Below the pieces are notes generated by a model. It ran no database searches, was not told where the DNA came from, and worked only from the letters and a program-made list of their open reading frames with translations. This document shows positions 1 to 45,308 of a stretch of 45,361 nucleotides of DNA, one piece after another. The stretch is from a virus. The position numbers and the translations under genes are program-made. The stretch lies in IMG/VR virus record IMGVR_UViG_3300021962_000198, positions 1 to 45,361 of that record. One strand, written 5' to 3'. Each line of letters starts with the position of its first letter. The first letter of the stretch is position 1.

Positions 1-448
1 CAACATATCTCCATTTAGTATCTGGATCACTATCGCTAGATTTACCGCCATAAGGTCTAATAAAACCTTCTTCTGTACCATAACTACCTGCACTTATAGA
101 ACCCATATTTTCACCAAAAATAACATATCCATTCAATACTTGTTGATCACTAAAAAGTTTTACAGCAATGTTACCGGTTGTATTTGCACCCCAGTAAATA
201 GGCTTTAAATAACCCTTAACATTAAAATATTTAAATGGAATTAATTCATGATTATATCTCATACCTCCATCTTCAAAATAAGCATTGATATATGGATTAG
301 AATTATAACCAGACTCTTTCATGAAGGTTTTATATTCTTCAATTTCAGGGCTATTTTTAATAGCTTCGAAAAAATCATATACTGTTACGATAGATTTTGG
401 TGAAATTTTCTCGGAAATATATTGTTCGAATAGTTTTACAGGTTTCAT
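1..448 (-). CDS. Putative internal head protein with capsid-targeting-like N-terminus (partial, 3' end off the window)
   Basis: An open frame of 149 codons runs from ATG at 448-446 to the left edge without a stop, so the C-terminus is missing. The protein begins MKPVKLFEQYISEK. This nearly matches the starts of the proteins at 44619-45308 and 42646-43071, and resembles the T4 internal-protein targeting tag MKTYQEFIAEA. Residues 11-13 (I-S-E) fit the L/I-x-E site of the T4-type prohead protease gp21. The rest is soluble-looking with many Gly, Tyr and Asn residues and no domain I recognise. It follows the tail-tube-like gene by 10 bases. Function inferred only from the tag: packaged in the prohead, trimmed after residue 13 and present inside the mature head. 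Confidence 0.75.
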   Translation of the reverse strand, partial: MKPVKLFEQYISEKISPKSIVTVYDFFEAIKNSPEIEEYKTFMKESGYNSNPYINAYFEDGGMRYNHELIPFKYFNVKGYLKPIYWGANTTGNIAVKLFSDQQVLNGYVIFGENMGSISAGSYGTEEGFIRPYGGKSSDSDPDTKWRYV

Positions 449-3910: not shown

Positions 3911-4573
3911 TTATACTTGTTGGAATTGGCTTCCACCTCCGCCGCCTCCGCTATTACATACATCAGTACTGTTAACATATCCATTTAATATGTAATACCA
4001 ATTAAATCCATCAGAATAATATCCACCCGAAGGTATAGACATTTGATCTTGATCAGCAAAGACCGCAGTACCTACTTGTAAAGCAAATTCAGAGTAAACT
4101 GTTCTTGTTTCAAATGCACTATTACATGCGGTGAACTGATCATAATCAAAACTTAAAGTGTATGCAGTAAGATTATTATTTCTGCTTGACGTTGCAGTTG
4201 GTGTAGGTGTCGCAGTTGGGCCTGCACCAGAAGGACTAGTTGGTGTTGGAGTTGGGCCTGCACCAGAAGGACTAGTTGGTGTTGGAGTTGGGCCTGCACC
4301 AGAAGGACTAGTTGGTGTTGGAGTTGGGCCTGTGCCAGAACCTGATGATGTGCCTGCTTGGGAAACATTAATTGTATCAGTCGTGGAACCGTTTCCATGT
4401 CTAACTGTTAATACAGCATTTCTTGCTGATCCGGCATTAGGTGATACAGTAATAGTCCATTCATCTGTAGTACCTACTCGCGTAATGGTAATCCAGCTAG
4501 GTGGAGTGTCCCATGCATAAGCTGTACCCAGTGGAGTAATATTTACCGTTCTTGAATAATCGTTTGCTGCCAT
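3911..4573 (-). CDS. BACON-domain tail protein with Thr-Pro repeat linker and Cys-bounded C-terminal module
   Basis: The 220-aa protein has three parts. Residues about 1-76 match a BACON domain (Bacteroidetes-associated carbohydrate-binding often N-terminal). Signs are P-S-W-I-T-I near residue 25, then W-T-I-T-V-S-P-N-A-G-S-A-R-N-A and terminal I-N-V-S-Q-A-G. Residues about 80-135 are a linker of three identical 12-residue PTPTPTSPSGAG-type repeats plus a degenerate copy. Residues 150-206 form a module bounded by Cys150 and Cys206 with G-Y-Y-S-D-G and W-Y-Y-I-L-N-G-Y-V. Modules of this type recur in the 2465-aa protein. A glycine run precedes the end. BACON domains often bind mucin or glycans in Bacteroidota, so an exposed adhesin or decoration role on the tail is plausible. 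Confidence 0.75.
   Translation of the reverse strand: MAANDYSRTVNITPLGTAYAWDTPPSWITITRVGTTDEWTITVSPNAGSARNAVLTVRHGNGSTTDTINVSQAGTSSGSGTGPTPTPTSPSGAGPTPTPTSPSGAGPTPTPTSPSGAGPTATPTPTATSSRNNNLTAYTLSFDYDQFTACNSAFETRTVYSEFALQVGTAVFADQDQMSIPSGGYYSDGFNWYYILNGYVNSTDVCNSGGGGGGSQFQQV
4218..4340. repeat. Three perfect 36-bp tandem repeats encoding a Thr-Pro/Ser-Gly linker
   Basis: Units at 4218-4253, 4254-4289 and 4290-4325 are identical 36-mers beginning gggcctgcaccagaagga. A partial fourth copy begins at 4326 (gggcctgtgccagaa). On the minus strand each unit adds 12 in-frame residues to the BACON protein. Perfect identity points to recent expansion or slippage. Confidence 0.95.
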
Positions 4574-4593
4574 TTTATTTGTTTATGTTTTTA

Positions 4594-4601
4594 TATTTAT
4601 C
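4594..4601 (-). promoter_or_regulatory. Late-promoter candidate, GATAAATA variant, upstream of the BACON gene
   Basis: On the minus strand GATAAATA ends 20 bases before the ATG at 4573, in the 37-base gap after the fibre gene. It differs by one base from the recurrent GATATATA found in other gaps and by one base from the T4 late promoter TATAAATA. Confidence 0.5.
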
Positions 4602-4610
4602 TTCTTTTTA

Positions 4611-6635
4611 TTATACAGTTATAATACTTGCCACCAGGGTGCCTGAGGTTGTACCTCCAGATTGTTGTACATATGATGTTAATGTATATGGATATGTACC
4701 AGCTGGTAATGTTACAGATGAAGAACTTTCATTGCTACTTGCGCCACCACTCGTATGATAAGCGACCAATGTAACACCGTTAACCGCTAAAGTTGCTTGA
4801 CCAGCGTTGCTTATATTATAAGGCATATAAGCGCTAGCCTTAAATGTCATAGAACCGCCAGAGATATTCACATAACCTGTTACAGATTGTGTCGCCGATG
4901 TATTTGGACTACTAAAACTAGATGTTACTGAAGTGGCTGCGCCCCACGTTGCTGTCGCTCCCGCGCCTGAACCGCTACTAGTTGGGGTTGGGGTTGGACC
5001 TGCGCCTGAACCGCTACTAGTTGGAGTTGGGGTTGGACCTGCACCTGAACCACTACTAGTTGGAGTTGGAGTTGGACCTGAAATAGGTGCAACGCTCACA
5101 ACATTAGAATCTACATAATATGGTGCAAATTGTTGTATTCTAAAATACATCGTAACGGTAGGTATGCCAGGCAATTGCAAGGTATTAGCAGAACAACTTC
5201 CCGTACTATTTACATTTCCAGTGTTAAACGTTGGATCTGAAGAAGCTTGTAAATTCATAGTTTGACAAGCTCCTGGAATTGTAGCGTTAAATGTAGCTAC
5301 ACCATTCAGTGGGTTTATACTTACACTATTTAAAACAGGTACACCACTGTTATCAATAGTTGGCGTTGGAGTTGGATCAACTGTAATAGGAGTAATTGTC
5401 CATATAACAGAAACGTTAGAATCATCAGGGTGAGTAACTGATACATACCATGGTAAACCAACTGTTGTACTGCTAGTAACAACTTTAATGCGATTATTAT
5501 TAGGTTCCATAGTTAAAGTTAAACCTGATCTATTAACAGAAACATTACCTTGTGTCGGATCTGAAGTAGCTGGATTAATAGCATACTCTAAATAAAGTGT
5601 AGTAACTTGATTATATGCTGCTGTTAAACTAGTTGAATTAGTAGCAGACAATGTTGCACTAGAAACTGGAGTTCCATCTTGATTTGCATTAATATCTCCA
5701 CCTGAAACTGAAACTGTATCACCTGCAGGGGAACCATCTTGATTTGCATTAATATCTCCACCTGAAATACCAACACTATCTCCAACTGGTGCACCACAAT
5801 CAGTACATAATTCTCTCCATTCAGGTGAACCTGAATTTGCATAATATGCTTCAACTACATCTAGATCCGTGTTGAATCTAATCATACCAACTTGAGGTAC
5901 ACTAGGTCGTTGACCGGTTGTACCAGAAGGCAATCTTAAATAACCTTTAAATTCTGCATTAATATCAACGTCTAAGATACCGGTTCCAGATGTATGTAAT
6001 TTAATATTGGTAGCACCAATAGATTTGATATCTACCCCAGCGCCATTTAAATTCAGTGTAGATGTATTGGCTGTTAAACTTATTTTATCAGTTAAAATTG
6101 AAAAGGCAATATTAGAACTTCCAAATGCATTCTGCAAACTAAACTTAGAGAAAACCCCGTCAGCTTCACTAGTTAAAACTAATTCTTTATTAGTGCTATG
6201 TTGAAGTTTTAAATAATTTTCAAAAATATCATCTTTAGCAATAGTTAATCTAGCATTGGTAGAAATATCTCCATCGTTAAAATCTTCTTCAAAATTAGGA
6301 TCGCCTAGCCAAATAATGGGTAAATTTAAATCAGAACTTCTTTTAGGTTTTAGAATAGTAACTTCATTAAAACCATCATTATTAATATCTACTTCAACTT
6401 TATACCAAGGACTATCAGTTGCGCCTGAATCTCCTTTTTCTCCAGTCACGCCGATATCACCTTTTTGACCTTTTTGACCTGTGGACCCTACTTGACCCTG
6501 ATCACCCTTTTGACCCTTAGGTCCAGCAGGTCCTCCACCATTTGCCAAAATCTGGTCAAAATTATAATTAATCTTTTCAAACTTTATGGAGTCCGAATCG
6601 CTTGGATGTAATATCTCTTGAATGTTAATTGCCAT
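4611..6635 (-). CDS. Collagen-like tail fibre / adhesin with Thr-Pro linker
   Basis: The 674-aa protein starts with an attachment-type segment (I-Q-E-I-L-H-P-S-D-S-D then K-I-N-Y-N-F). It is shared in pattern with the short fibre at 19772-20323. Thirteen Gly-X-Y triplets follow at residues 35-73 (GPAGPKGQKGDQ and so on), a collagen-like trimerising stalk. Next come beta-rich fibre modules and a duplicated 20-residue unit containing S-G-G-D-I-N-A-N-Q-D-G. After two or three Ig-like stretches there is a linker of 13-residue PTPTPTSSGSGAG repeats and a C-terminal beta domain of about 120 residues. This fits a trimeric fibre with an exposed distal tip. It lies 1 base after the giant 2465-aa gene. 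Confidence 0.8.
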   Translation of the reverse strand: MAINIQEILHPSDSDSIKFEKINYNFDQILANGGGPAGPKGQKGDQGQVGSTGQKGQKGDIGVTGEKGDSGATDSPWYKVEVDINNDGFNEVTILKPKRSSDLNLPIIWLGDPNFEEDFNDGDISTNARLTIAKDDIFENYLKLQHSTNKELVLTSEADGVFSKFSLQNAFGSSNIAFSILTDKISLTANTSTLNLNGAGVDIKSIGATNIKLHTSGTGILDVDINAEFKGYLRLPSGTTGQRPSVPQVGMIRFNTDLDVVEAYYANSGSPEWRELCTDCGAPVGDSVGISGGDINANQDGSPAGDTVSVSGGDINANQDGTPVSSATLSATNSTSLTAAYNQVTTLYLEYAINPATSDPTQGNVSVNRSGLTLTMEPNNNRIKVVTSSTTVGLPWYVSVTHPDDSNVSVIWTITPITVDPTPTPTIDNSGVPVLNSVSINPLNGVATFNATIPGACQTMNLQASSDPTFNTGNVNSTGSCSANTLQLPGIPTVTMYFRIQQFAPYYVDSNVVSVAPISGPTPTPTSSGSGAGPTPTPTSSGSGAGPTPTPTSSGSGAGATATWGAATSVTSSFSSPNTSATQSVTGYVNISGGSMTFKASAYMPYNISNAGQATLAVNGVTLVAYHTSGGASSNESSSSVTLPAGTYPYTLTSYVQQSGGTTSGTLVASIITV
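4957..5073. repeat. 39-bp tandem repeats encoding the fibre's Thr-Pro linker
   Basis: Three near-identical 39-base units (4957-4995, 4996-5034, 5035-5073) each carry cctgaaccgctactagttgg or a close variant. They are followed by the start of a fourth (ggacct). Each encodes 13 residues (PTPTPTSSGSGAG). Unit length differs from the 36-base units of the neighbouring gene although the encoded composition is alike. Confidence 0.92.
5674..5767. repeat. Direct repeat, two 34-bp copies with 60-bp period, in the fibre gene
   Basis: The sequence ccatcttgatttgcattaat plus the following 14 bases occurs at 5674-5707 and again at 5734-5767. It encodes the duplicated S-G-G-D-I-N-A-N-Q-D-G unit. The copies are identical over 34 bases, which suggests a recent 20-codon duplication. 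Confidence 0.9.
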
Positions 6636-6636
6636 T

Positions 6637-9600
6637 TTATGACTTTATTTTTATCATAGGTTTGATGTCGTAAGAATATCCTAATCTTTTATTATATATC
6701 AATCTAAAATTCATAGGCTTTTGCTTATGTGGTTTAAACGTAAAATTATTATCTGGTGAAAATCCACCTTCACTTATAGAATTCAAACTTGACACATCTT
6801 GAATTGTTGAAGCACTACCTTTGAATTTTCTAGTATAAAGAGATATTGAATCTACTACAAATTTTTGTAAAATATTTTTATTAATATAGAGCTCAGCATC
6901 ATCTGATAGTGTTGTTTTATCACCAGCAGAATTTTCTTCTGTTACATAATTTTGAATTTTAGCCAGTACACCATCATTTTTCAATAATCTAGTAGCAGCG
7001 TTAATAACATAAAAATCCGCGATAATTTCGTTCTCATCTTCGAAAAATAACACCTCAGCCTGATTAGTATTATTTTTTAAAATCTCATCCAATTGTTCTT
7101 GACTACCTACAATTTGATAAGTAAACGAAATGATATCATAATTATTTCTAATCTTCATTGCTGTAGAAGCAAAATAAGATTTTTCTTCAGTATTGTCTAA
7201 CGTACCTGGAATTTCTTCATTTTTACCACCTGGGAAAGATCTAGTATAATAGCCAGCATCCCATGAAGATCTAAATACATTTACGTTCTTTTTAGAGATA
7301 GCTATCTCATCAATTAACGGATACAAAGGTAGTTTATCAGATGACTCAGACAACTTAGTTACACCTTCTGGATTGATCTCATTCACTTTATGATAAAAAT
7401 GATTTTTAATAATTCCCCAGTTTAAATCATGTACACCGTTATCTTGTATAAACCCTACATTAAATGTTGTACCACATCTATTATATCTTTCATAATAACC
7501 TTTAGCCACAGAAATGTCGCGGGCGTTACTAAGAGAATGTTTGTATAACAAAGATTCAAATCCTACTTCTCTTTGATCACCACTCGCTTGAATTCTATTT
7601 GACTTGAAATGAGTATACATGTCAGTAAACGTAATCACAGGTCTTAGATCAACAGTGTATGGACCGTTATGTCTAATTAAAAATGGATAATATGATGCAT
7701 CTTCAGACGAAACCAAGTTATAACCAATGGTACCTTTGAATAATTTATAACTTTTAGGTTTATCATTGTCCTCTTCAATAGAAAGAGTAGCATACTTGAT
7801 TATCTCATTACCGTCCTCAAAATTAATAACAAATCTATTATTGTTAACCGAACCATTTTCTTCAACCGTAGTATACTTGACACTGTTATCATTTAAACTT
7901 AACATGTCAGCAACGTTGTGAATTGATATTTTATCTAATAAATTTTTATGAATATTTGTACCACCATTTGTATAGTAATACTTAATTTGCTTTTGTAAAT
8001 AATTAGGCAAATATTCAACATCCAACACATCATTAGGATCGTTTACATTAACTGGGGGACCACTAACCTTAAGTATATTTGTTCCTTCAACTGCGTAAAT
8101 AGAAAATTTATAAATAGAGTTTCCTGGCGTATTAGGATATAAATCCATCAATACATCGCCGTATAATCCGTTTTCACCCAATAGAATTTGATTTTCAAAA
8201 TCAGGAATACTTCCATCAAAATGATTTATACCTTGTACGTCATAAGGTGATTGACCAGTAAAGTCCGTATCATTCCATGCTAATGCACCATCGAATGATG
8301 TGTTAGCATAAATGTAATCCCCAATGGTGTGATCATAAACAATTTTATGATTTAATTCGTAAAGTAATTTTCTATTCATATTACCCTTTATCCAGTAATC
8401 ACTAATATTTAGCGTAATAAAGAATATTACAAATTTGAATTTTTTATTTTGAATAACCTCAAATTCTACATCATTGCTGTTTGTATCGGTATTGGTTTTT
8501 AATAGAATACTAAATTTATATCCGTTAAATTCGCTATTCTTAACAAAATCTAAGGCTACATCATTTGTAAACTCTTTTCTGCTTTTTAATACAACTTTTA
8601 AACCCTTAAAAATAGTACTAGCAAAATCCGTATTACCACCACCATCAATTAATGTATATTTTTTCTTTAATTCAGTTTTAAAGAAAGTATTATTAACATC
8701 GGTTGGATTTAAATATCCTTGTGTATAATTACCAAAATTATTGTAAATATTTTCAATATCTTCAATGTTGAGATTTTTTTCAAAACCATCAACAATCATA
8801 AATTTATCAAAATAATTATTTCTAGTACTTTTAAATAGAGAAGGTGTAAGTTCAAAATCCTCAATAAAATTAATATAAGAGAATGTGTCATTTAATTGGT
8901 CATATCTCATGTATGTAGGAACTTTATCCATATAAAACCATTCATGAGTCATCTCGTTTTTACTACGCGATATTGCCGATAAGTCTGGTGAGAAATTAGT
9001 TCTACCAAAAGCTTCGTTAGCATTTAAGTAATATGGCTTATCTCTAACGGTCAATGAATCTTTTAAAACCCACTTGTTAATATTAGGTACCACTCTAGAA
9101 TTAGTTGCAAACTCTTTTAATTGATTTTCTTTTAATCTATCAAACTCGCTAGTAATATTTTCAGGCAAAATAGTATTTACCGACTCTTCGCTTAATATAC
9201 CAGATAAATTAGCAAAATAATTATTTGGACTTAATGCAAAATTATCGTCAAATATTTCGTTAGCAGATAGCAATGTATTAAATTCACCAGTGATTGGATC
9301 AATATTATTTAATACGTGATCATACGGTTCGTATGAAATATTATCTCTTGTTTCATATTCCAATTCTTTTAATTCTGAATTTGAAGTATCATAAAAATCA
9401 AAATTCATATCATAGATATCATATGCCGAAAACAAACCTATTCTAACAACGTTCTTGTTAAAAACTCTAGCCTCTCCGTTACCTATGTCTGATTTATCTT
9501 CTAAAATTAGTTTGAAATTAGTGGAATTTTGCACCGTAATATCTTCCACTATATCGATAACTTTGTTAAAAACACCCGGTAATCTTGTTTCTAAATAATC

Positions 9601-12600
9601 ACCGATTGAAATTTGACTAACAGTAAGATTATCTACAAAAATTGATTTACCAGTAGAATTACCACCTTTTAAATAATGTGCTCTCCAATTTGAAAGAACA
9701 GTGTTGGCTCCGCTTCTAAGTTTTAAAATATTATTAGTATCTAAGTTTTCAACTTTAATAAAATCGATCACATTAGCCTTGCTAACCAATACTACCTGTT
9801 GTAACAATTTGTAGCCCGGTACTTTGGCCTTAACCCATATATCAGCACCTATGTTGTATGCATCTAATGGACTATCATCACTGTGAATTGCTGCAGCTAA
9901 AGCAGATGCAATATCACCCAATGTACCCTGATTTGAGAACATTTTACCGCTATGTGTACCCTTTGGTAAAGTATAACTAGCGGAGTATGTTCTATTTTGT
10001 ATATTTACATTTGTTTGAATTTGATCAACCCTAATAATAGAACTTATTGCACCAGTTACATACATATTTAGATCGCCTAAATTTGTTTGAATCTCGGTGA
10101 TAACAAACGATTTTTTATTATAATCGATCGTGATGTCTAAATAAAATCTTAATGGTAAATTATTCCAAACAGTGAAGATGTTATTAACAGTATCTTCAAA
10201 TGTTGGACCAGTTATAAAAGAAAATAAATATGGTGTAGATCCATCTTCAATATTAATAGAAATGCTTTCATTAGGAGTGTGCTTAACAAATGTAAATTTA
10301 TAAGACTCCTCTCTAGATGCTATAGCAGCTATTCTATCACCGCTATCTGGCGTATCTATGATTGACATTTTTACAAAATCATAACCTCTATCATCATTCT
10401 TTGTTAAATTAACAGATTTACCAGTGTGTGAAATTCCAATAGTTTTTTGTATAATAGAATTAACAGCATCTACTTTAACCTCGAAAGCTGTCGGATCATA
10501 TAATCCAGTATTGGATATTTTATAAAAATTATTATTAATATTAATATAACCCAGTGTTGGAGAATTAGTCATTTGTGTATGACTAGGGATTGCACTACTA
10601 GGGTCATTCGGATTAATATAAGATGTTAACTTACTGAATGTAATAATATTGTTATTAATAGAATCTATTTCACCAAAACCCGAATCAATAGAATCTACGT
10701 ATAGGCCAAAATATCTATTAATACTGTAATCAGCAGCATTTTCATCGTCAAATAAAAATTCTAAGTTTAATAAATTAGCACATAATATTTGATTTCTTCT
10801 AAAACCATCGGTAATAAAATCATTAGCTTCGATAAGAGGCTTATCTGCTTCAACATAATCTTTGTAAATGTATTCACCCTTACTGGTTAACTCTCCAGAA
10901 CCTAGATCAATACCATTAAACTTAGTATCTTCGTTTTTATCAAACGACACAGTGATCGGTGATTTTGGAAAAGTTTCCTGCTGAACGTGATTTCTAATGT
11001 ATTTACCAATATTAGAATTCTTAGATAAATCAAATGTTTTGATAATCTCAGCATTTTTTAGAATCTCTTGAATTCTATCAAAATTAGTATTATTAATATT
11101 ACTAGCATCAACACCTGTTGGGTTTTTAACTTTAAATATTACGAAGTTATTTGGTATATTATTATCCAACCAGATCGGAGCAAATATTCTATAGCCCTCT
11201 GTATAATTTTTAGAATAATTATAAGTGACTCCATACTGGTACTCCTCTTCTATTTGTTTATCATAAGAATCTAAAACAGTTAAGTCAGAATTAGATCTCT
11301 TGGTTAGATAAATTAAATCTGCTGGTGTTCCAGTAGATTTAAAGAATGAACAAACGTCAGTACCATAATTACCGTTAGGATTAATTGGGTATTTTTTATA
11401 TTTGATAGCGGACAATTCAGCACTAGCATTTATACTTTCTAAATAAACAGAATCGTTTGAATCTACCAACACTTTAACATTTCCAGATAATTTTGGATTT
11501 GTTCTTAATAGCGGTTTAGAAACATGATCTAATTTATAATTTTCTTGAGTATTAAAATTTGGTCCGAATTTAATAGTCTCGTAGCCATCAATATATGGAA
11601 ATGTATATAGAGTTGCAGTTGAAGAATTACCAATAACACACTCGCTACTATCAACGTTTTCATATACTTTAACAACAGCTTCACTGCCTAAACCTAATTG
11701 AACTCCGCTCGAAGCAACTGGTCTCTGTTGAGATGTGATATTAGAGGATCTTAATAAAAACAATGCATCATCAAGATCTTCAGCTAAAATTTTAAAGCTG
11801 TATTCTAAACAACTATTGAAGTCACTGGTCTTAATTACATTACCAAACGATAATGTATCTATAAAATCCTTTATGTGACTACCAGTGTCTCCTGATAAAT
11901 TGGTATGAAGGCCATCTATAACATAAATAGGCCAAAAAATAGTTTCTATATTATTATCGTTTTCTGGTCCTTCTATTTCTGGATCACAGCTATAAAATCC
12001 ATAAAAAAGATTAACATCATTTACATTAGGTGTCTCTCTAGAAATTAAATTCTCATTTATAACAGGCTTGTCATATACTGAACATTGACCATATTCGGTA
12101 ATAAGACCATCCGCCATAGTTAAACCAACACTATTGTATCCGTACCAATTCAAGTTTAATCCATCTCCTTGATTTTCCCAAATTAAGTAACCATTAGTAT
12201 CGGCAAAAATATTAGATTCGAATAGATCTGTTTGATCTTCGCCCAAAGCGCCAATAGCACTCATATAAATTGGGGTGTTAGACTGAGCTAAACTTAATAA
12301 ATCTAAATAAGCGCTAGAACCAACTGGTCTAACATAGAATAAACTAACCGTAGAAGTTGGGGCTTGACAGAATTGATTAATAGTAGGATTGCTCAATTGT
12401 GTTTTTTGAATAGAACTTAATTCAAAAACTTCATTAACCACTGCCTCTTCACAAGTCCAAATTAAACTTCCATCAATATTTTCACCCCACGTACCAACAG
12501 TGGATCTTTTATAATATGTGTCTGTTGAATTAATTTCACTATAAATACCGCTGTCAATAACTCCAGAAACAGTATTACCACCTGTGCTAGTATATAAATT

Positions 12601-14034
12601 CGAATCATACTCAGTGACAAATACTGGAATATTATTATCAACTAATTCATTTAAAGTTAATTGTGTGGTACCATCATACCAAATATCCACCAATTGAAAA
12701 TCGCCATCACAATAAGTAATACTATTTGTAGCATATTTAACGGTAGTATAAGACGAACTCGCAGAATTATCACAATTTGTTATCTCTAAGATCTTACCAT
12801 CTATATCGATTTTTAATATTCTAGTGGCAGACGAGTCAGATACTGGGATAAGCATCTCAATTTGATTAGCCGGAAGAATTAAATTGGTTAAACCAATATT
12901 ATTATAGATCATATCTCCGACCTCTAGTTGACTTACGTTATTTGCTTGAGAAGTATTACCGTAAGCTATATTATTTCTAGACGCTAGACATGCTGAATTT
13001 GCATCATTAGTAAATGAACCAATATTCATTTGAAAATATGGCGCATAGTCTACGACGAAAGAAACTGTTAAATTAGTAGATTCTGCTCCTTTTTCATCAG
13101 TTGCTTTTATAACCCAAGTATCGCTACCAGAAAATCCTAACGTAGGAGTATATTTAACACTTAAGACATTGCCAACCTGGTTGTTTATGGTAATAGTACC
13201 GTTACTAGGGTTTGTGATAGTACTTAACGTAGCGTCATCGCCGTCTGCATCAGAAATAACAATATTAAAATTAACAAAGCTATTTTGAGTCAACGAAATT
13301 ATACCAGGATTCTGAATAACTGGAGCCGCATTAATGGGATTGATAGTTATTGTTGCCGCAGAGGAAGTTTGGTTTGAACCATCTGTTACAGTAAACGTAA
13401 ATGTATCTTGACCAATTTGCGATGCAGTATGTGTATATGTTGCAACATTACCATTAAGGACTACCGTGCCTCTTGTAGGCTGATTAACTATATTATAAAC
13501 TAGTGAATTTGAATCAAAGTCATCTGTTCCAACCAATGTAATGTTCAATGTACCATTCCAAGCAATACTATATGTTGCTGGAAAAGCAGTTGGCGCACCG
13601 TCCGGTGTTGCAGTCGGAGTCGGTGTTGCAGTCGGAGTCGGTGTTGCAGTTGGAGTTGCAGTTGGTGTTGCAGTTGGAGTTGCAGTTGGACCTGGTGTTG
13701 GAGTTGCTGTCGGTTCAACAGTCGGTGTTGGCGTCGGTGTTAATTCAATCGTCGCGGTAGGAGTAGGGCTTAGGGTTTGACATGTGTCAACTGAAATTAC
13801 TACACCACTATCATCTATTTGATATGCACTAGTATTAGCCGCATTAGGGTACCATGTACTTCCGCCCGCATATGGGTTAGTTAGATTACCATTACCGTCA
13901 TCGGTTCCGTATAAAACAGTGTTGACACCAATAGCTCCATCATAATATAATGTAATTGTTCGCCCGTCAGCTGCTGCACAGGCTAAATTTGAACTACTAT
14001 AAGTACCTTCCCTTAGGATTATTGATGATGCCAT
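6637..14034 (-). CDS. Giant modular baseplate/fibre protein with Ig-like and Cys-bounded modules (2465 aa)
   Basis: At 2465 residues this is the largest gene here. Residues 19-85 form a Cys-bounded module (C19, C85; T-L-Y-Y-D-G then W-Y). Residues about 88-146 are a long Thr-Pro linker. Two cadherin/bacterial-Ig-like domains follow at about 150-233 and 236-331, the second with D-A-D-G-D-D. Further Cys-bounded modules with W-Y or L-I-W segments run to about residue 690. The remaining 1700 residues are Asn/Asp/Tyr-rich and beta-patterned, with no enzymatic motif seen. It is not a tape measure, because it lacks long helical repeats. It is most likely an extended peripheral tail protein, perhaps carrying receptor-binding tips near the N-terminus. 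A candidate promoter lies upstream in a 58-base gap. Confidence 0.7.
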   Translation of the reverse strand: MASSIILREGTYSSSNLACAAADGRTITLYYDGAIGVNTVLYGTDDGNGNLTNPYAGGSTWYPNAANTSAYQIDDSGVVISVDTCQTLSPTPTATIELTPTPTPTVEPTATPTPGPTATPTATPTATPTATPTPTATPTPTATPDGAPTAFPATYSIAWNGTLNITLVGTDDFDSNSLVYNIVNQPTRGTVVLNGNVATYTHTASQIGQDTFTFTVTDGSNQTSSAATITINPINAAPVIQNPGIISLTQNSFVNFNIVISDADGDDATLSTITNPSNGTITINNQVGNVLSVKYTPTLGFSGSDTWVIKATDEKGAESTNLTVSFVVDYAPYFQMNIGSFTNDANSACLASRNNIAYGNTSQANNVSQLEVGDMIYNNIGLTNLILPANQIEMLIPVSDSSATRILKIDIDGKILEITNCDNSASSSYTTVKYATNSITYCDGDFQLVDIWYDGTTQLTLNELVDNNIPVFVTEYDSNLYTSTGGNTVSGVIDSGIYSEINSTDTYYKRSTVGTWGENIDGSLIWTCEEAVVNEVFELSSIQKTQLSNPTINQFCQAPTSTVSLFYVRPVGSSAYLDLLSLAQSNTPIYMSAIGALGEDQTDLFESNIFADTNGYLIWENQGDGLNLNWYGYNSVGLTMADGLITEYGQCSVYDKPVINENLISRETPNVNDVNLFYGFYSCDPEIEGPENDNNIETIFWPIYVIDGLHTNLSGDTGSHIKDFIDTLSFGNVIKTSDFNSCLEYSFKILAEDLDDALFLLRSSNITSQQRPVASSGVQLGLGSEAVVKVYENVDSSECVIGNSSTATLYTFPYIDGYETIKFGPNFNTQENYKLDHVSKPLLRTNPKLSGNVKVLVDSNDSVYLESINASAELSAIKYKKYPINPNGNYGTDVCSFFKSTGTPADLIYLTKRSNSDLTVLDSYDKQIEEEYQYGVTYNYSKNYTEGYRIFAPIWLDNNIPNNFVIFKVKNPTGVDASNINNTNFDRIQEILKNAEIIKTFDLSKNSNIGKYIRNHVQQETFPKSPITVSFDKNEDTKFNGIDLGSGELTSKGEYIYKDYVEADKPLIEANDFITDGFRRNQILCANLLNLEFLFDDENAADYSINRYFGLYVDSIDSGFGEIDSINNNIITFSKLTSYINPNDPSSAIPSHTQMTNSPTLGYININNNFYKISNTGLYDPTAFEVKVDAVNSIIQKTIGISHTGKSVNLTKNDDRGYDFVKMSIIDTPDSGDRIAAIASREESYKFTFVKHTPNESISINIEDGSTPYLFSFITGPTFEDTVNNIFTVWNNLPLRFYLDITIDYNKKSFVITEIQTNLGDLNMYVTGAISSIIRVDQIQTNVNIQNRTYSASYTLPKGTHSGKMFSNQGTLGDIASALAAAIHSDDSPLDAYNIGADIWVKAKVPGYKLLQQVVLVSKANVIDFIKVENLDTNNILKLRSGANTVLSNWRAHYLKGGNSTGKSIFVDNLTVSQISIGDYLETRLPGVFNKVIDIVEDITVQNSTNFKLILEDKSDIGNGEARVFNKNVVRIGLFSAYDIYDMNFDFYDTSNSELKELEYETRDNISYEPYDHVLNNIDPITGEFNTLLSANEIFDDNFALSPNNYFANLSGILSEESVNTILPENITSEFDRLKENQLKEFATNSRVVPNINKWVLKDSLTVRDKPYYLNANEAFGRTNFSPDLSAISRSKNEMTHEWFYMDKVPTYMRYDQLNDTFSYINFIEDFELTPSLFKSTRNNYFDKFMIVDGFEKNLNIEDIENIYNNFGNYTQGYLNPTDVNNTFFKTELKKKYTLIDGGGNTDFASTIFKGLKVVLKSRKEFTNDVALDFVKNSEFNGYKFSILLKTNTDTNSNDVEFEVIQNKKFKFVIFFITLNISDYWIKGNMNRKLLYELNHKIVYDHTIGDYIYANTSFDGALAWNDTDFTGQSPYDVQGINHFDGSIPDFENQILLGENGLYGDVLMDLYPNTPGNSIYKFSIYAVEGTNILKVSGPPVNVNDPNDVLDVEYLPNYLQKQIKYYYTNGGTNIHKNLLDKISIHNVADMLSLNDNSVKYTTVEENGSVNNNRFVINFEDGNEIIKYATLSIEEDNDKPKSYKLFKGTIGYNLVSSEDASYYPFLIRHNGPYTVDLRPVITFTDMYTHFKSNRIQASGDQREVGFESLLYKHSLSNARDISVAKGYYERYNRCGTTFNVGFIQDNGVHDLNWGIIKNHFYHKVNEINPEGVTKLSESSDKLPLYPLIDEIAISKKNVNVFRSSWDAGYYTRSFPGGKNEEIPGTLDNTEEKSYFASTAMKIRNNYDIISFTYQIVGSQEQLDEILKNNTNQAEVLFFEDENEIIADFYVINAATRLLKNDGVLAKIQNYVTEENSAGDKTTLSDDAELYINKNILQKFVVDSISLYTRKFKGSASTIQDVSSLNSISEGGFSPDNNFTFKPHKQKPMNFRLIYNKRLGYSYDIKPMIKIKS
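6693..6700 (-). promoter_or_regulatory. GATATATA motif inside the 3' end of the giant gene, possible promoter for the fibre gene
   Basis: On the minus strand GATATATAATAAAAG reads 57 bases upstream of the ATG at 6635. It resembles GATATATAATACATG before the giant gene. It lies within coding sequence (residues around Ile-Tyr-Asn-Lys), so it could be fortuitous. Confidence 0.3.
13600..13767. repeat. Low-complexity Thr-Pro/Ala-Thr-Pro coding repeat
   Basis: Short units of the type gttgcagttggagttgcagt and gtcggtgttgcagtcggagt repeat across this stretch. They encode about 58 residues of TPTATPTPT-type linker near the N-terminus of the 2465-aa protein. The repeat is imperfect and made of 6- and 12-base sub-units, unlike the 36/39-base units near 4.2 and 5.0 kb. 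Confidence 0.9.
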
Positions 14035-26438: not shown

Positions 26439-27746
26439 TTATTTTATTTTTTTACTTACTACAACTTCAGTACCATCAAATCTAGCACTGTCACTGATGA
26501 ACCCCTCTCTAAAGATTCCACCGGTCATTTTACCTTTAAACATTGTATCTCTACCAGCAACATAGCAATTAACCAGTTCACAACTACCATGTGTATATGA
26601 TGATTCTACTTTAGAGTCTTTAACGACTGTGCCCTTGTACAAACTGCTTAGCATGATAGCAGAACCAGTAACATTACAGCCATACATACTGCAGTTAGTA
26701 ATATTTCCAGCTAACTCACAATCCATGAATTCAAAGTTTTCCAATAAATATACTGTTGGGAATTTACCGTCTTTTATTTGTACTGCAGAATAATCAGAAT
26801 CGTAATTAATAATACCCTCTTCCATGCTACCATTAACGATAAGGTCCATTACTCTATTTTTAAATCTATCCCAATGCACCTTTATAATTTTTGGATCTTC
26901 TTGTAGATCTGCCAATATTTTTATTTTTGGCCAATGTTCAGACACCTTAGTGTAATCTCTGAGCATTTCAACAATAGGCTGATTTCTATTAATGATCTTC
27001 TGTAATTCAATTTTATTTTCTGGTGTAAATCTAGGATCATTGCAAGAATTCCACATTTGTACCAAAAATCTTTCAGTCAAATATAGAATATCATCGGTTT
27101 TTTTCTCATAGCTATCTCCACCTAAATATCTAAATTCTAAATAGTTTTTCTCTTTCTTAGAAAAATTAATACCATAGTATTTAGTGTCAGCAAATTTAAA
27201 ATTGTTTGAGGATATTTGATCAGGGTTAAAATGATATGCATCCCATTTTGGCATAATCCATTTAATACTTTTGGCATAAGCAGATTTTTCTCTATTCGGG
27301 AAGAATTTATAAACCTGAGATTCATCAAAATCTAAAATAAACTTAAGTACGTTCATTTTAGAAATAAGATCCTTATCTTCTAGATATTGTTTATCAAAAG
27401 AAAGATTAATGTGAATAGATGCTCTATCATTGGTATATCCATTATCAGATATCCACTTTAACATCTTAATTACCATAATTCTAGCATTTCTATATGGTAA
27501 AGCACCTGTAACCAACTCAATTAAACCTTTACCGCCCGACATATCGGGTTCCATTTTAAACTCTTCCGGAGAAGGTTGAAAATCGGAATGAGCCTTGTCT
27601 TCTAATCTAATCTTTCGATCTAGAAGCTCCATTAAGCTTTTTCTAGTAGCTTCTAGATCGAGATTAGAATAAAATTCAAACTCAACACCCATTAGTGCCG
27701 CGTTTAAGATTGATTCTCTTGAAGAATCAGGTGTTAATTTTTGCAT
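26439..27746 (-). CDS. Amidoligase-like enzyme fused to a beta-helix-like C-terminal region
   Basis: The first ~300 of 435 residues fit the phage amidoligase family (COOH-NH2 ligase fold related to glutamine synthetase and ATP-grasp enzymes). Signs are G-V-E-F-E-F-Y-S near residue 20, M-E-P-D-M-S-G-G-K-G-L-I-E-L-V-T-G near 70, and A-S-I-H-I-N-L-S, which corresponds to the conserved H-x-H/N strand. Family members are predicted to form peptide-like amide bonds. Residues about 330-425 are a run of short strands rich in Cys, Ser, Gly and Asn (F-M-D-C-E-L-A-G-N-I-T-N-C-S-M-Y-G-C), resembling a right-handed beta-helix. It lies between the S1-like gene and the neck-like gene, with its own candidate promoter. 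The substrate is unknown; virion or host envelope modification are possibilities. Confidence 0.65.
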   Translation of the reverse strand: MQKLTPDSSRESILNAALMGVEFEFYSNLDLEATRKSLMELLDRKIRLEDKAHSDFQPSPEEFKMEPDMSGGKGLIELVTGALPYRNARIMVIKMLKWISDNGYTNDRASIHINLSFDKQYLEDKDLISKMNVLKFILDFDESQVYKFFPNREKSAYAKSIKWIMPKWDAYHFNPDQISSNNFKFADTKYYGINFSKKEKNYLEFRYLGGDSYEKKTDDILYLTERFLVQMWNSCNDPRFTPENKIELQKIINRNQPIVEMLRDYTKVSEHWPKIKILADLQEDPKIIKVHWDRFKNRVMDLIVNGSMEEGIINYDSDYSAVQIKDGKFPTVYLLENFEFMDCELAGNITNCSMYGCNVTGSAIMLSSLYKGTVVKDSKVESSYTHGSCELVNCYVAGRDTMFKGKMTGGIFREGFISDSARFDGTEVVVSKKIK

Positions 27747-27802: not shown

Positions 27803-29086
27803 TTAGGGCATTTTTAAAAATACCTTCATAGATTCTGCATCAATTCTAGTGATCTGTACTGTGATAGGATCACCATTTTTAAATACTCCCATAACCTCTT
27901 CACCAATGTCGCTCACGTGTAATAAACCTGTTACGCCTTCTTCAATTGTAATGAATATACCGTAATCTTTTTTAGTTTTAACTGTAGCCTCTACAATCGA
28001 TGGAATTTGATATCTACTTGTAATATCAGACCATGGATTTACTGTAATATTTGCCCTTTGAGTTAATGTGATCTTAGTATCACTGATGATATCTTTTACC
28101 ATAAATGAAATTTCATCACCCGGTAAAATTTGTCTAGCTTTGAATTTATTAGCAGTTTCTTCATCTAAATCATTAGTATGAATCATACCGGTTAAACACT
28201 TATTGAATTCTACGAATACACCGTATTTAGCAGTACCTGTTACGTTACCCGTGATAGTTTCACCCTGAGACTCTCTTAATGCTTCGATTTCGTTAGGTAT
28301 TAAAGCTTGTAAATATTTTCTATGAGATACAACTAGGGTGCCTCTTTCTGCTGAGAAACTTACGGGTACAACATACATTTCTGTACCGATAATAGAACTG
28401 AAGTCGTGTAATTTATTAATACCGGCTAAAGAACCTGGCATAAAACATTCTACACCTTGAACGTTTACCATATAACCTCCGTTTTCGATCATATTAGTAA
28501 CTCGACCGATCCAAGCTGTACCTCCAACCTCGACTGCTTCTCTAAGATCCATGAATACCTTTTGTTTTACTCCACCACTAATAGTACCTAAAACGTGAGA
28601 ATTTTTTGCAGTTTGTGTAATCAATACTGCTGTTTTATCACCAGGACTTAACGATTGAATTTCAATAGGTTCCTTTTCATACTTAACATACACAAGTTCT
28701 CTATAGCCCACGTCAACACTGATAAAATCTTTGCTAACTGCATAAATGGATCCTTCATGAATTTCGCCAACATTTAAAATGCTTACAAATTCACCACTTG
28801 ATCTGTCGAACGAAGTAAGAATATCATACATCTCTTGAGCATATGACTCTCGAGAGTATACCTTGTCTCCGTTTTGGGTTTTAATGTGTGGGTTTGGTTT
28901 TCTCAATCTAGAAGGACAAGTAGCTTCATATGCTTCCCACATGAATTGTCCGTTTTCGTCATAGAATTGATCTGATGTGTTTTGAAATTGGTCGTCTAAT
29001 TTTAGTTGAAAATTTGTTTCTTCGACCTCGGGTTGGTTAGCGTTTGATTCACCAATTCTAACTCTTTTGTTTTTTTCGTTGTTCAT
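27803..29086 (-). CDS. Ribosomal protein S1-like RNA-binding protein with four S1 domains
   Basis: After an acidic N-terminal ~100 residues, four S1 (OB-fold) repeats can be traced. They are at about 105-175 (G-S-I-Y-A-V-S-K-D-F-I-S-V-D-V-G), 185-255 (A-W-I-G-R-V-T-N-M-I-E-N-G-G-Y-M-V), 275-345 (G-N-V-T-G-T-A-K-Y-G-V-F-V-E-F) and 358-427 (A-T-V-K-T-K-K-D-Y-G-I-F-I-T-I-E-E-G-V-T-G-L-L-H-V). Bacterial bS1 usually has four to six. S1 proteins bind mRNA leaders and bring them to the 30S subunit, so a phage copy could favour late phage mRNAs, whose leaders are A/U-rich and lack Shine-Dalgarno sites. It sits inside the baseplate block behind its own candidate promoter. Replacement or competition with host S1 is inference. 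Confidence 0.88.
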   Translation of the reverse strand: MNNEKNKRVRIGESNANQPEVEETNFQLKLDDQFQNTSDQFYDENGQFMWEAYEATCPSRLRKPNPHIKTQNGDKVYSRESYAQEMYDILTSFDRSSGEFVSILNVGEIHEGSIYAVSKDFISVDVGYRELVYVKYEKEPIEIQSLSPGDKTAVLITQTAKNSHVLGTISGGVKQKVFMDLREAVEVGGTAWIGRVTNMIENGGYMVNVQGVECFMPGSLAGINKLHDFSSIIGTEMYVVPVSFSAERGTLVVSHRKYLQALIPNEIEALRESQGETITGNVTGTAKYGVFVEFNKCLTGMIHTNDLDEETANKFKARQILPGDEISFMVKDIISDTKITLTQRANITVNPWSDITSRYQIPSIVEATVKTKKDYGIFITIEEGVTGLLHVSDIGEEVMGVFKNGDPITVQITRIDAESMKVFLKMP

Positions 29087-42645: not shown

Positions 42646-43071
42646 TTAGTATTTAGGCTCTTCAATAACCTTTAATTTGATTAATTCGTCAATAAATTCA
42701 GTCATTGTCATTTTCATTGCATCAGGAATAATAGTCTTACTACCTTCTACGAAGTCAACATCATCAAAATAGTATGATTTACCATTATCTGCAGCTATAG
42801 TTATGACTTCACCTAACATTACATCACCTGGAGCTCTTCTTGCACCTGATAATGCCTTAACAGCATCTTTACCCCATGCACTAAAATAGATAACATTGTC
42901 TGGATTACTGTCAGTTCTTGTTGGATTTAAGCCCATATCAAAAAGTGCTTTTTCACGACCGCTACCTTCTGGTGCATACCAATAAGCGATCATACCTTTT
43001 GCTAATTCTTCGTCTCTACCCTTTTTAAGGCCTTCGTTGATGAATTCTTCGTATAATTTTACGTATTTCAT
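42646..43071 (-). CDS. Putative internal head protein with capsid-targeting-like tag; possible ADP-ribosyltransferase-like fold
   Basis: The 141-aa protein begins MKYVKLYEEFINEGLKKG. The first 13 residues match the tag of the proteins at 44619-45308 and at the left edge, and I11-N-E13 is a gp21-type cleavage site. After the tag, A-Y-W-Y-A-P, then M-G-L-N-P-T-R-T, V-I-Y-F-S-A-W-G-K-D-A and M-L-G-E-V-I-T-I follow an order seen in ADP-ribosyltransferase-like folds. The catalytic triad is not clear, and the T4 Alt parallel (an internal, injected ADP-ribosyltransferase) is only a hypothesis. It lies 14 bases after the acidic protein and is closed by a terminator. Confidence 0.65.
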   Translation of the reverse strand: MKYVKLYEEFINEGLKKGRDEELAKGMIAYWYAPEGSGREKALFDMGLNPTRTDSNPDNVIYFSAWGKDAVKALSGARRAPGDVMLGEVITIAADNGKSYYFDDVDFVEGSKTIIPDAMKMTMTEFIDELIKLKVIEEPKY

Positions 43072-43085
43072 GTTAATTTAGTTTT

Positions 43086-43694
43086 TTATTTTGAAGACCA
43101 AGTTTCTTTTAACTCGTCTATTTTTTTAGTAAAAGATTCTTTAACCGTATTTAAAACAGCTTCATACATTTCTGTAGTTAATTCGTCGCCTTCATGAATA
43201 ATAGCATGAGACTCTTCCATTTTCTGTGCGATCAATGTAGCAGCCAAAGCGGCATTCTCTTTTAAATAAGATTCCATTGTATGATCAGGATAATCGTCCT
43301 TATGATATTCACACATTTCATCTACCATTTTATCATAGGCTTCTTTTAACATTTCAGAAACTGGTTTTACCTTTTGGTCATCTTCAGCCTCTTCTCCACC
43401 TGCAGCCTCTTCCTCTTCTTCTTTGGCTTCTTCATCGGGGCTTTCTAGTTCTTCATGTTCTTTTGATTCTTCGTCGTCATCATCGTCATCGTCGTCATCG
43501 TCGTCATCATCAGATTCTTTGGCAGTGCCTTTGATTTTTTCTTCATCGTCGTCATCTGATTCTTCACCTTCACACACACATGGTTCTTCACCACATGTTT
43601 CGCAAAGCTCGTTGGTTTCTTCAGCGATTTCTTCGCTATTCTTCAAGTTTTTACTAATAGCAAATTCCTCGAAAGATAAAATTTTCTTTGTCAT
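43086..43694 (-). CDS. Extremely acidic protein with Cys knuckle, candidate prohead core/scaffold (gp67-like)
   Basis: The 202-aa protein has an N-terminal L-S-F-E-E-F-A-I-S-K related to the internal-protein tag, with I23-A-E25 as possible protease site. A C31-E-T-C34-G-E-E-P-C39-V-C41 knuckle that may bind zinc follows. Next are long Asp/Glu runs, including 13 consecutive Asp at 62-74, and a helical last third (L-K-E-A-Y-D-K-M-V-D-E-M, then V-K-E-S-F-T-K-K-I-D-E-L). T4 gp67, a minor prohead core protein, has a comparable acidic Asp/Glu tail, and scaffold cores are helical and acidic. It lies between two probable internal-protein genes. Assignment by composition and context only. Confidence 0.55.
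   Translation of the reverse strand: MTKKILSFEEFAISKNLKNSEEIAEETNELCETCGEEPCVCEGEESDDDDEEKIKGTAKESDDDDDDDDDDDDDEESKEHEELESPDEEAKEEEEEAAGGEEAEDDQKVKPVSEMLKEAYDKMVDEMCEYHKDDYPDHTMESYLKENAALAATLIAQKMEESHAIIHEGDELTTEMYEAVLNTVKESFTKKIDELKETWSSK
43473..43511. repeat. Asp-codon trinucleotide run
   Basis: Thirteen GAT/GAC codons on the minus strand (read as atc/gtc triplets on the plus strand) encode 13 consecutive Asp. The mixture of GAT and GAC argues that the acidic run is kept by selection and not only by slippage. Confidence 0.9.
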
Positions 43695-43714
43695 AATACA
43701 ATATTATTTTATTT

Positions 43715-43722
43715 TATATATC
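43715..43722 (-). promoter_or_regulatory. Late-promoter candidate GATATATA upstream of the acidic protein
   Basis: GATATATA on the minus strand ends 20 bases before the ATG at 43694, in the 39-base gap after the glycosyltransferase gene. The spacing matches the GATAAATA at 4594-4601 and the GATATATA at 37793-37800. Confidence 0.5.
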
Positions 43723-43733
43723 TATTTTTCAAA

Positions 43734-44615
43734 TTAATAATTATTATTCAGTAGGTAGTCAATATTCTTAACGGCATACTTATATGAATGTGTGTTATCA
43801 GATGATACATCTGCTCTTTGACCGATACAATTATATTTTGATCCATATACATTTAAATCTTTCATTTGATGATTAATCCACACATCCACTGGACCGACGA
43901 TAGGAAAATTATTTAGCAGTTTTTTAGCAGCTCTTTGACTGATAAAAACACCAGAAAGCCACCATAAACCCCTATTAATTTTGACTATATCTTCAGAATA
44001 TGGTTCGCTCTCGAAACCATACACGCACGGAGCATATGAAATATAAAACATGTCCCAATCATTTGGTAATTGTTCAAACATTTTATTAACTAGCCAAGAA
44101 AAGCCTATGCTGAATTCAACATCATCTTCTAATATTAGTGCTGAACTTATATTTTTATCAACAATGTCTTGTAAAATACTAGCATGACCAAGTGCAATAT
44201 TACTTTCTGCTAATGAAGATTTAACATTAAGATTCTCTAACTCTTCTCTACTAGCAGTTCTTCCTAAATTTAATTCTACGATAGGATCTGGATCCAAACC
44301 CCAGCAATAATAAAATGAATAATTGGGATTGTGGATATTTTTATCCCATTCTTTTTTACCGTATGAACCTTCCCACCATGTGATAGAATCCAACAGCGTT
44401 GAATTCTTTGTTTTAACTCCAGCTAAATTTGATTTAGTGGCATTCAATTTATCAGTTCTAAATGGAAGATACAACATATATGTTTTATCAACAAATTTAT
44501 CTATATCTAATTCGATATCATCCCAATATTTTCTAGGATTTGTTCTAAGAACTTTAAAAAAATCATCTCTCCACTGTCGAGTTTCTTTGTAAAAGGGAGT
44601 GTGTTGTAAATGCAT
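43734..44615 (-). CDS. Glycosyltransferase family 25-like protein
   Basis: The 293-aa protein shows the GT25 (LPS/lipooligosaccharide galactosyltransferase-type) pattern. It has A-E-S-N-I-A-L-G-H-A-S-I-L-Q-D (about 136-150), A-L-I-L-E-D-D-V-E-F with E163-D164-D165 as the nucleotide-sugar/metal motif, then W-D-M-F-Y-I-S-Y. Later G-L-W-W-L-S-G-V-F-I-S-Q-R-A-A-K-K-L-L matches the acceptor part. It would transfer a sugar to a protein, lipid or glycan. It sits between two genes for likely head-internal proteins, so a virion protein target or a host-surface change are both possible. No signal peptide or membrane segment is seen. Confidence 0.82.
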   Translation of the reverse strand: MHLQHTPFYKETRQWRDDFFKVLRTNPRKYWDDIELDIDKFVDKTYMLYLPFRTDKLNATKSNLAGVKTKNSTLLDSITWWEGSYGKKEWDKNIHNPNYSFYYCWGLDPDPIVELNLGRTASREELENLNVKSSLAESNIALGHASILQDIVDKNISSALILEDDVEFSIGFSWLVNKMFEQLPNDWDMFYISYAPCVYGFESEPYSEDIVKINRGLWWLSGVFISQRAAKKLLNNFPIVGPVDVWINHQMKDLNVYGSKYNCIGQRADVSSDNTHSYKYAVKNIDYLLNNNY

Positions 44616-44618
44616 ACT

Positions 44619-45308
44619 TTATTTTTTATCTGAGGCTTTTTCTCTTTTCTTAACGGTTTTTATCTTGGCCTTTAATGCAATTTGCTGCTTTTGAACTGCA
44701 GCTTTCATACCGTCTACAGAAGCTTGTTGCATTTGAGTTTTCAATAGAGCACTTTGTAATTTATCAGTTGGCTCCTTTTCATCATCTTTACCTAATTGAT
44801 TAATTTGAGCCAAAATATCTTTTGTTTTATCTGATAAACTTTTTTGTTTTTTAGTCAAGTCTTTTATTTTCTGCTTGTCTGACTTGGGCTTACTCTTTTT
44901 CTTTTCATTTAAAAAGGCCTCAAATGTATTAAGAGATTCGTCGATCTCTTTTGATTTTTCTAATGCCCAATCAACACCTTCATCACCGCCCCAAATTAAC
45001 CAAGACACATAACCTTTGTCTTTCCATGGTGTATCTTTTAATTCTGGATCAATGGTTGAATTTTTACGATGTCTATTAAATGAGGCCATTCTTTTAACAG
45101 TATCTGCTGAAATGTTTTCACCTTTGGCCAATTGATGTGCTCTCGCCCAACCAACTGCAGTACCAGCATCTACCTCTTCGCGACCGTATTTTTCTTTCCA
45201 GTCAATAGCCATTTGAGCATTCTTTTTTGCCGCAGCAGGATAGTCATTGTATGACTCCTCTGTGGAAGACTCTTGAATAAATTGCTCAAATAATTTAATA
45301 GGTTTCAT
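44619..45308 (-). CDS. Multi-domain internal head protein with capsid-targeting-like tag and three I/L-x-E sites
   Basis: The 229-aa protein begins MKPIKLFEQFIQESS. Residues 1-13 are the recurrent tag and I11-Q-E13 is a gp21-type site. Residues about 20-122 are a conserved phage domain of unknown role (Y-P-A-A-A-K-K-N-A, T-A-V-G-W-A-R-A-H-Q-L-A-K-G, R-M-A-S-F-N-R-H, W-L-I-W-G-G). A second tag-like segment follows (L-N-T-F-E-A-F-L-N-E), giving I122-D-E124 and L133-N-E135 sites. The last ~90 residues are a Lys-rich helical tail suited to contact DNA. Processing would release the folded domain and a basic peptide. It is preceded by the end of another gene with a 2-base gap. Confidence 0.75.
   Translation of the reverse strand: MKPIKLFEQFIQESSTEESYNDYPAAAKKNAQMAIDWKEKYGREEVDAGTAVGWARAHQLAKGENISADTVKRMASFNRHRKNSTIDPELKDTPWKDKGYVSWLIWGGDEGVDWALEKSKEIDESLNTFEAFLNEKKKSKPKSDKQKIKDLTKKQKSLSDKTKDILAQINQLGKDDEKEPTDKLQSALLKTQMQQASVDGMKAAVQKQQIALKAKIKTVKKREKASDKK

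Follow-up and report, generated by a model that had tools for sequence, protein, structure and literature searches.

The capsid targeting sequence (CTS) of the T4 internal proteins IPI-IPIII was reportedly described by Mullaney and Black in 1996. T4's own head-delivered proteins are inhibitors of restriction enzymes. The CTS of the T4 internal proteins has been reviewed (PMC9026906, PMC3012670), CTS-type head delivery is already known for the T-even phages (PMC3012670; PMC12373910), and T4 internal proteins with this kind of tag are injected (PMC12373910). In IPIII, targeting depends on CTS residues 4 and 7 and processing on residues 8 and 10; a position-10 Asp prevents processing and leaves targeting unaffected (PMC9026906). 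T4 Alt has a short N-terminal propeptide cut at I-T-E, and the head propeptides of phiKZ and SPN3US, on inner-head and ejected proteins, are removed after x-x-E by a gp21-related protease (PMC5694885). Unlike the tag described here, the phiKZ and SPN3US propeptides are mostly >100 residues long and do not form one common short tag (PMC5694885). The open-access literature (subscription papers and preprints lay outside the scope of the search) contained the T4 CTS and phiKZ-like long propeptides and no report of the present tag. A CTS in a huge-phage lineage, the size of its repertoire, its presence on core ORFs and the fusion of protease and scaffold appear to be new.

The DNA analysed here (the window) spans 45,361 bases and is a genome fragment recorded as a virus in IMG/VR. 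The sequence-only reading had claimed that three of its ORFs, starting at 45308, 43071 and 448, open with a common 13-residue peptide and then diverge; both coordinates and consensus proved correct, and the mature parts of the three proteins fall into separate blastp clusters. The features concerned are as follows.

44619..45308, minus strand: tagged protein 1 (229 aa), consisting of the tag, a conserved phrog_2859 domain (residues 17-115), an internal tag copy and a Lys-rich helical domain
45270..45308, minus strand: tag MKPIKLFEQFIQE of the 45308 protein, with a predicted cut after E13
44904..44936, minus strand: second, internal copy of the tag, SLNTFEAFLNE, at residues 125-135 of tagged protein 1, with a further predicted cut
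43086..43694, minus strand: acidic 202-aa protein with the tag-like start MTKKILSFEEFAISK, predicted to be uncleavable
42646..43071, minus strand: tagged protein 2 (141 aa)
43033..43071, minus strand: tag MKYVKLYEEFINE of the 43071 protein, with a predicted cut after E13
1..448 (ORF 2-448), minus strand: tagged protein 3 (149 aa within the window), open at the window edge
410..448, minus strand: tag MKPVKLFEQYISE of the 448 protein, with a predicted cut after E13

The closest long relative, G005 (150 kb), is collinear with the entire window, with 31 of 34 ORFs matching at a median identity of 72%. Remoter relatives include the 462-kb huge phage LR756500 and, further away, Sphingomonas phage PAU and phages of Tenacibaculum, Chryseobacterium and Prevotella; these relationships suggest that the host belongs to the Bacteroidota. 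The 448 gene, which is cut by the window edge and encodes approximately 320 residues once the overlapping contig L204 is added, is missing between the flanking homologues in G005 and is thus an insertion relative to that genome. The tagged gene set between the 45308 gene and a helicase gene also differs among close relatives, and this changing set, together with the 448 insertion, is as expected of an arms-race island. A glycosyltransferase family 25 gene (window 43734-44615) lies amid the tagged genes, and its position varies among the relatives.

In the 45308 protein, the Lys-rich domain behind the internal copy resembles a stand-alone tagged ORF of G013 (MKYLKIYEEFLFE followed by KKKS...; 46% over 52 residues), which fits a fusion that retained the second tag. 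An AlphaFold model of this protein (pLDDT 69) gave no PDB fold match at E < 0.001. An IMG/VR search for homologues of the 43071 protein found none except those in L001 and L002, and the tag pattern MK..KLYEEFINE shows no variation across the three homologues; the AlphaFold model of this protein was set aside (mean pLDDT 47, three sequences).

The tag consensus of the lineage is MK[YH]IKLFEEFINE, in which residues 1-10 follow M-K-x-[IVL]-K-x-[FY]-E-x-F and residues 11-13 follow [ILV]-x-E. When ORFs were selected by residues 1-10 alone, residue 13 was Glu in 89 of 126, compared with 4-17 at nearby positions. Position 11 is I, L or V, and since V is common this is slightly wider than the L/I-x-E motif. 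Many ORFs that lack Glu13 have [ILV]NE a few residues further on (for example, MKHVKLFEAFASTVNE and MKRIKLFEEFLLSRINE, each followed by A), indicating that the docking part and the cut site are separable; natural Asp13 variants such as MKYIKLFESFVND also exist, and some tagged ORFs have no cut site at all. The likeness to the T4 internal-protein peptide drawn in the sequence-only reading was borne out by the mapped T4 residues: CTS residues 4, 7, 8 and 10 align with F7, F10, I11 and E13 of the tag, the spacing from F/Y7 and F10 to the Glu is that of the aromatic targeting residues 4 and 7, and the [ILV]-x-E end fits. With the IPI-IPIII CTS the tag shares a short N-terminal position on otherwise unrelated small proteins, aromatic residues three positions apart, an [IL]-x-E end, a gp21-type protease in the genome and variable gene islands. 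It differs in its length (13 rather than 10 residues), in its consensus and in the many more tagged genes per genome, as well as in its occurrence on core ORFs and in the fusion of the protease to a scaffold.

We consider it very probable that the tag is a T4-type capsid targeting sequence of a huge T4-like phage lineage, with a dialect that is new and a use on a larger scale than in T4. The first ten residues would be a short amphipathic helix by which the protein docks on the scaffold core of the prohead, and residues 11-13 would be the cut site of a gp21-type prohead protease, which would remove the tag and free the passenger in the maturing head. The passengers would then exit with the DNA at infection or remain as head parts.

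The scan of relatives for the tag that had been proposed was run, and yielded 277 distinct tagged ORFs in approximately 145 unrelated passenger clusters, these counts being approximate because ORFs in the relatives were called by a simple ORF picker. The tag is short, such that a few regular-expression matches per large genome are expected by chance, and counts were therefore compared with shuffled N-termini. The core pattern occurred three times in the window (0.05-0.06 expected) and 4-22 times in six related long records (0.3-2 expected), in which the pattern of residues 1-10 occurred 3-28 times (0.3-2.1 in shuffles). Four long relatives each gave 10-28 tag matches against 0.3-2 in shuffles, which together with the window count excludes a chance origin; the weakest record was G007, in which three matches to residues 1-10 equalled the shuffled maximum of 3. 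Overall, the larger relatives have 8-28 tagged genes per genome and the least tagged has three.

Tagged genes occur in tandem runs (for example, G013 101.7-106.8 kb), as would be seen if the common start were a by-product, either of recent duplication of 5' gene ends or of a DNA or RNA element favouring translation. This explanation seems to us extremely improbable. Where different tags of one genome share a residue, their codons for it diverge about as much as, or more than, codons drawn at random from the usage of that genome; with the codons randomised and the peptide kept, selection acts on the peptide and not on the DNA. Moreover, neither Glu13 nor the aromatic spacing has a DNA-level reason, and a DNA pattern for the tag, 39 bases long, matched at least 120 stretches in IMG/VR, whereas a version with the tag codons in scrambled order matched none there. 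The true pattern had no match in 84,980 prokaryote genomes.

If the tag is a capsid targeting sequence, a gp21-type protease should accompany it, as the sequence-only reading had pointed out. No Peptidase_S77 was found in the 45-kb window fragment, and this comparison consequently rests on the relatives. The family was found above its curated cut-off in G005, G006, G007 and G013, weakly in G012, and also in LR756500 and PAU. Among 18 contigs >100 kb picked via the tag alone, 16 encode an S77 protease and two gave no match. The catalytic His, Ser and Asp regions of the relatives' enzymes align with those of T4 gp21 (GELDHP/GELNHP, ISSRAAG/VSSRGLG). Three contigs >230 kb (G020, G024 and G029) have a second, short S77-like ORF of approximately 132 aa that is distant from the main protease.

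The protease of G005, G006, G007, G013 and LR756500 is part of a fusion whose C-terminal half is scaffold-like and contains repeats such as QYAEHIAEKLDQS; the G005 example is given below.

L082/G005 111307-113367: protease-scaffold fusion, gp21-gp22-like, with 14-residue repeats

The scaffold halves contain 19-30 [ILV]xE sites, compared with 9-15 in shuffles (weakest in G005, 22 against 15.4), and T4 gp22 contains 20 compared with 10. This enrichment suggests that the protease of the lineage would cut at [ILV]xE. Among the scaffold sites, x=1 was the most frequent spacing. A tag-like context around these sites was significant for G006 (p=3e-5) and for G013 (p=9e-4); the signal was weak for G005 and G007, and LR756500 and T4 gp22 showed none. 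Since this signal is uneven across genomes, mimicry of the scaffold by the tag is offered as a hypothesis only.

The gap between the portal and protease genes of T4 holds gp67 and gp68. In G005, G006, G007 and G013, the gene order is portal, a tagged acidic ORF of approximately 112 aa, protease-scaffold and major capsid protein, so that the tagged ORF occupies the gp67/gp68 place in all four relatives. An ORF of 400-530 aa follows the major capsid protein in G005, G006 and G013, and has the tag or a tag variant in G005 and G006; the G007 contig stops within the capsid gene. The tagged ORF at the gp67/gp68 position and the post-capsid ORF of approximately 520 residues look like head-core parts. 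The acidic 43694 protein, whose start MTKKILSFEEFAISK has no cut site, is another possible head-core protein. A homologue adjoins the tagged island in all close relatives checked.

An amphipathic-helix spacing could also dock proteins elsewhere, and most of the window consists of tail genes, so that the tag might direct its passengers to a replication compartment, the membrane or the tail. We regard such a destination as quite improbable, because the head operon includes tagged genes, the prohead protease accompanies the tag in the contigs, and the tag ends in the cut motif of that protease.

The sequence-only reading had gone on to predict that any gene with the tag encodes an injected effector. 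This overreaches, since the same tag is present on two types of ORF that resemble head-core parts; the tag predicts head loading, not an effector role. The passengers themselves are more basic than the background once mature (median pI 7.9 against 5.9). Few of 140 passenger representatives match families, namely a DUF2201 metallopeptidase with a VWA domain, PNK3P phosphatase, NUDIX, PAP2 and leucine-rich repeats. A further passenger resembles a 2H phosphodiesterase.

L252 1760-2359, minus strand: tagged 2H phosphodiesterase-like protein with both H-x-T motifs and a tag ending in Asp13

This protein lies near the anti-CBASS protein Acb1 at E 3e-5, which is below the family cut-off. T4 Alt is an injected ADP-ribosyltransferase, and the G013 passengers at 102716 and 104466 resemble one by eye only; as they gave no significant family match, this identity was set aside.

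The head-core-like ORFs raise the possibility that the tag brings proteins to the prohead core for assembly only, where they would be shredded or kept in the head with no injected effector among them. Apart from the tagged ORFs at the gp67/gp68 place and behind the major capsid protein, this would agree with the occurrence of the 45308 protein domain in unrelated viruses, within ORFs whose annotation is prohead protease or major capsid protein, and with the name 'scaffolding' given to one tagged protein of PAU (gp152). However, the passengers are highly diverse, their set varies between close relatives, and they include enzymes with no obvious assembly role (the PNK3P phosphatase, PAP2, metallopeptidase with VWA, NUDIX and 2H phosphodiesterase near Acb1 described above); T4 internal proteins with a similar tag are, moreover, injected (PMC12373910). 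A role confined to assembly is therefore unlikely in our view, and a targeting sequence whose passengers would leave with the DNA or stay as head parts remains the preferred reading. The tag resembles the load-then-cut signal of T4, and it may be used to predict proteins that are packed in the head and possibly injected.

In the cultured Sphingomonas phage PAU (JQ362498 9332-201592), 19 ORFs share an MKT[LI]xxLYE N-terminus such as MKTLTQLYE, compared with 0.24 in shuffles, and 14 of the 19 cluster near the protease, no more than 12 kb away (p = 4e-9). In the depositors' annotation, the tagged ORFs gp142 and gp154 are each an 'internal capsid protein', and gp152 is 'scaffolding'. The capsid protein of PAU is shortened from 585 to 520 residues at maturation (PMC5646251), and this mature length places its start within one residue of the junction between LME64 and N65. 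PAU is thus like the window lineage in its common N-terminal peptide, the clustering at the head operon and the S77 protease, and unlike it in its dialect, MKT[LI]xxLYE[AS]KLNE; the window dialect showed no enrichment over shuffles in PAU and PTm1.

A plausible but tentative extension is that large T4-like phages in general deliver proteins to the head by such short cleavable tags, with a dialect in each lineage that matches its own protease-scaffold. In the window lineage, the tag may mimic the repeated 14-residue unit of the scaffold (QYAEHIAE and similar) in order to dock, and one genome may then encode an injected arsenal of 10-30 proteins, including anti-defence enzymes, that could be read from its sequence. 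For most huge-phage genes no function is known, and the tag lists candidates for proteins delivered ahead of phage gene expression. A proteomic study of one cultured relative could thereby test what huge phages inject, and the tag itself is a candidate cargo-loading signal for heads far larger than that of T4.

Several further features were observed. Within the tail gene block of the window, a protein with S1 RNA-binding domains adjoins a putative amidoligase (27803-29086 and 26439-27746). Three large tail-side ORFs of the window (3911-14034) have Pro-Thr-rich linkers that recur as SGAGPTPTPTS units, together with a collagen-like stretch. In T4 (NC_000866 18966-19130, L202), the hypothetical protein gp61.1 starts with MKTFKEFIKED, which resembles the T4 CTS, and this protein may be an unrecognised internal protein.
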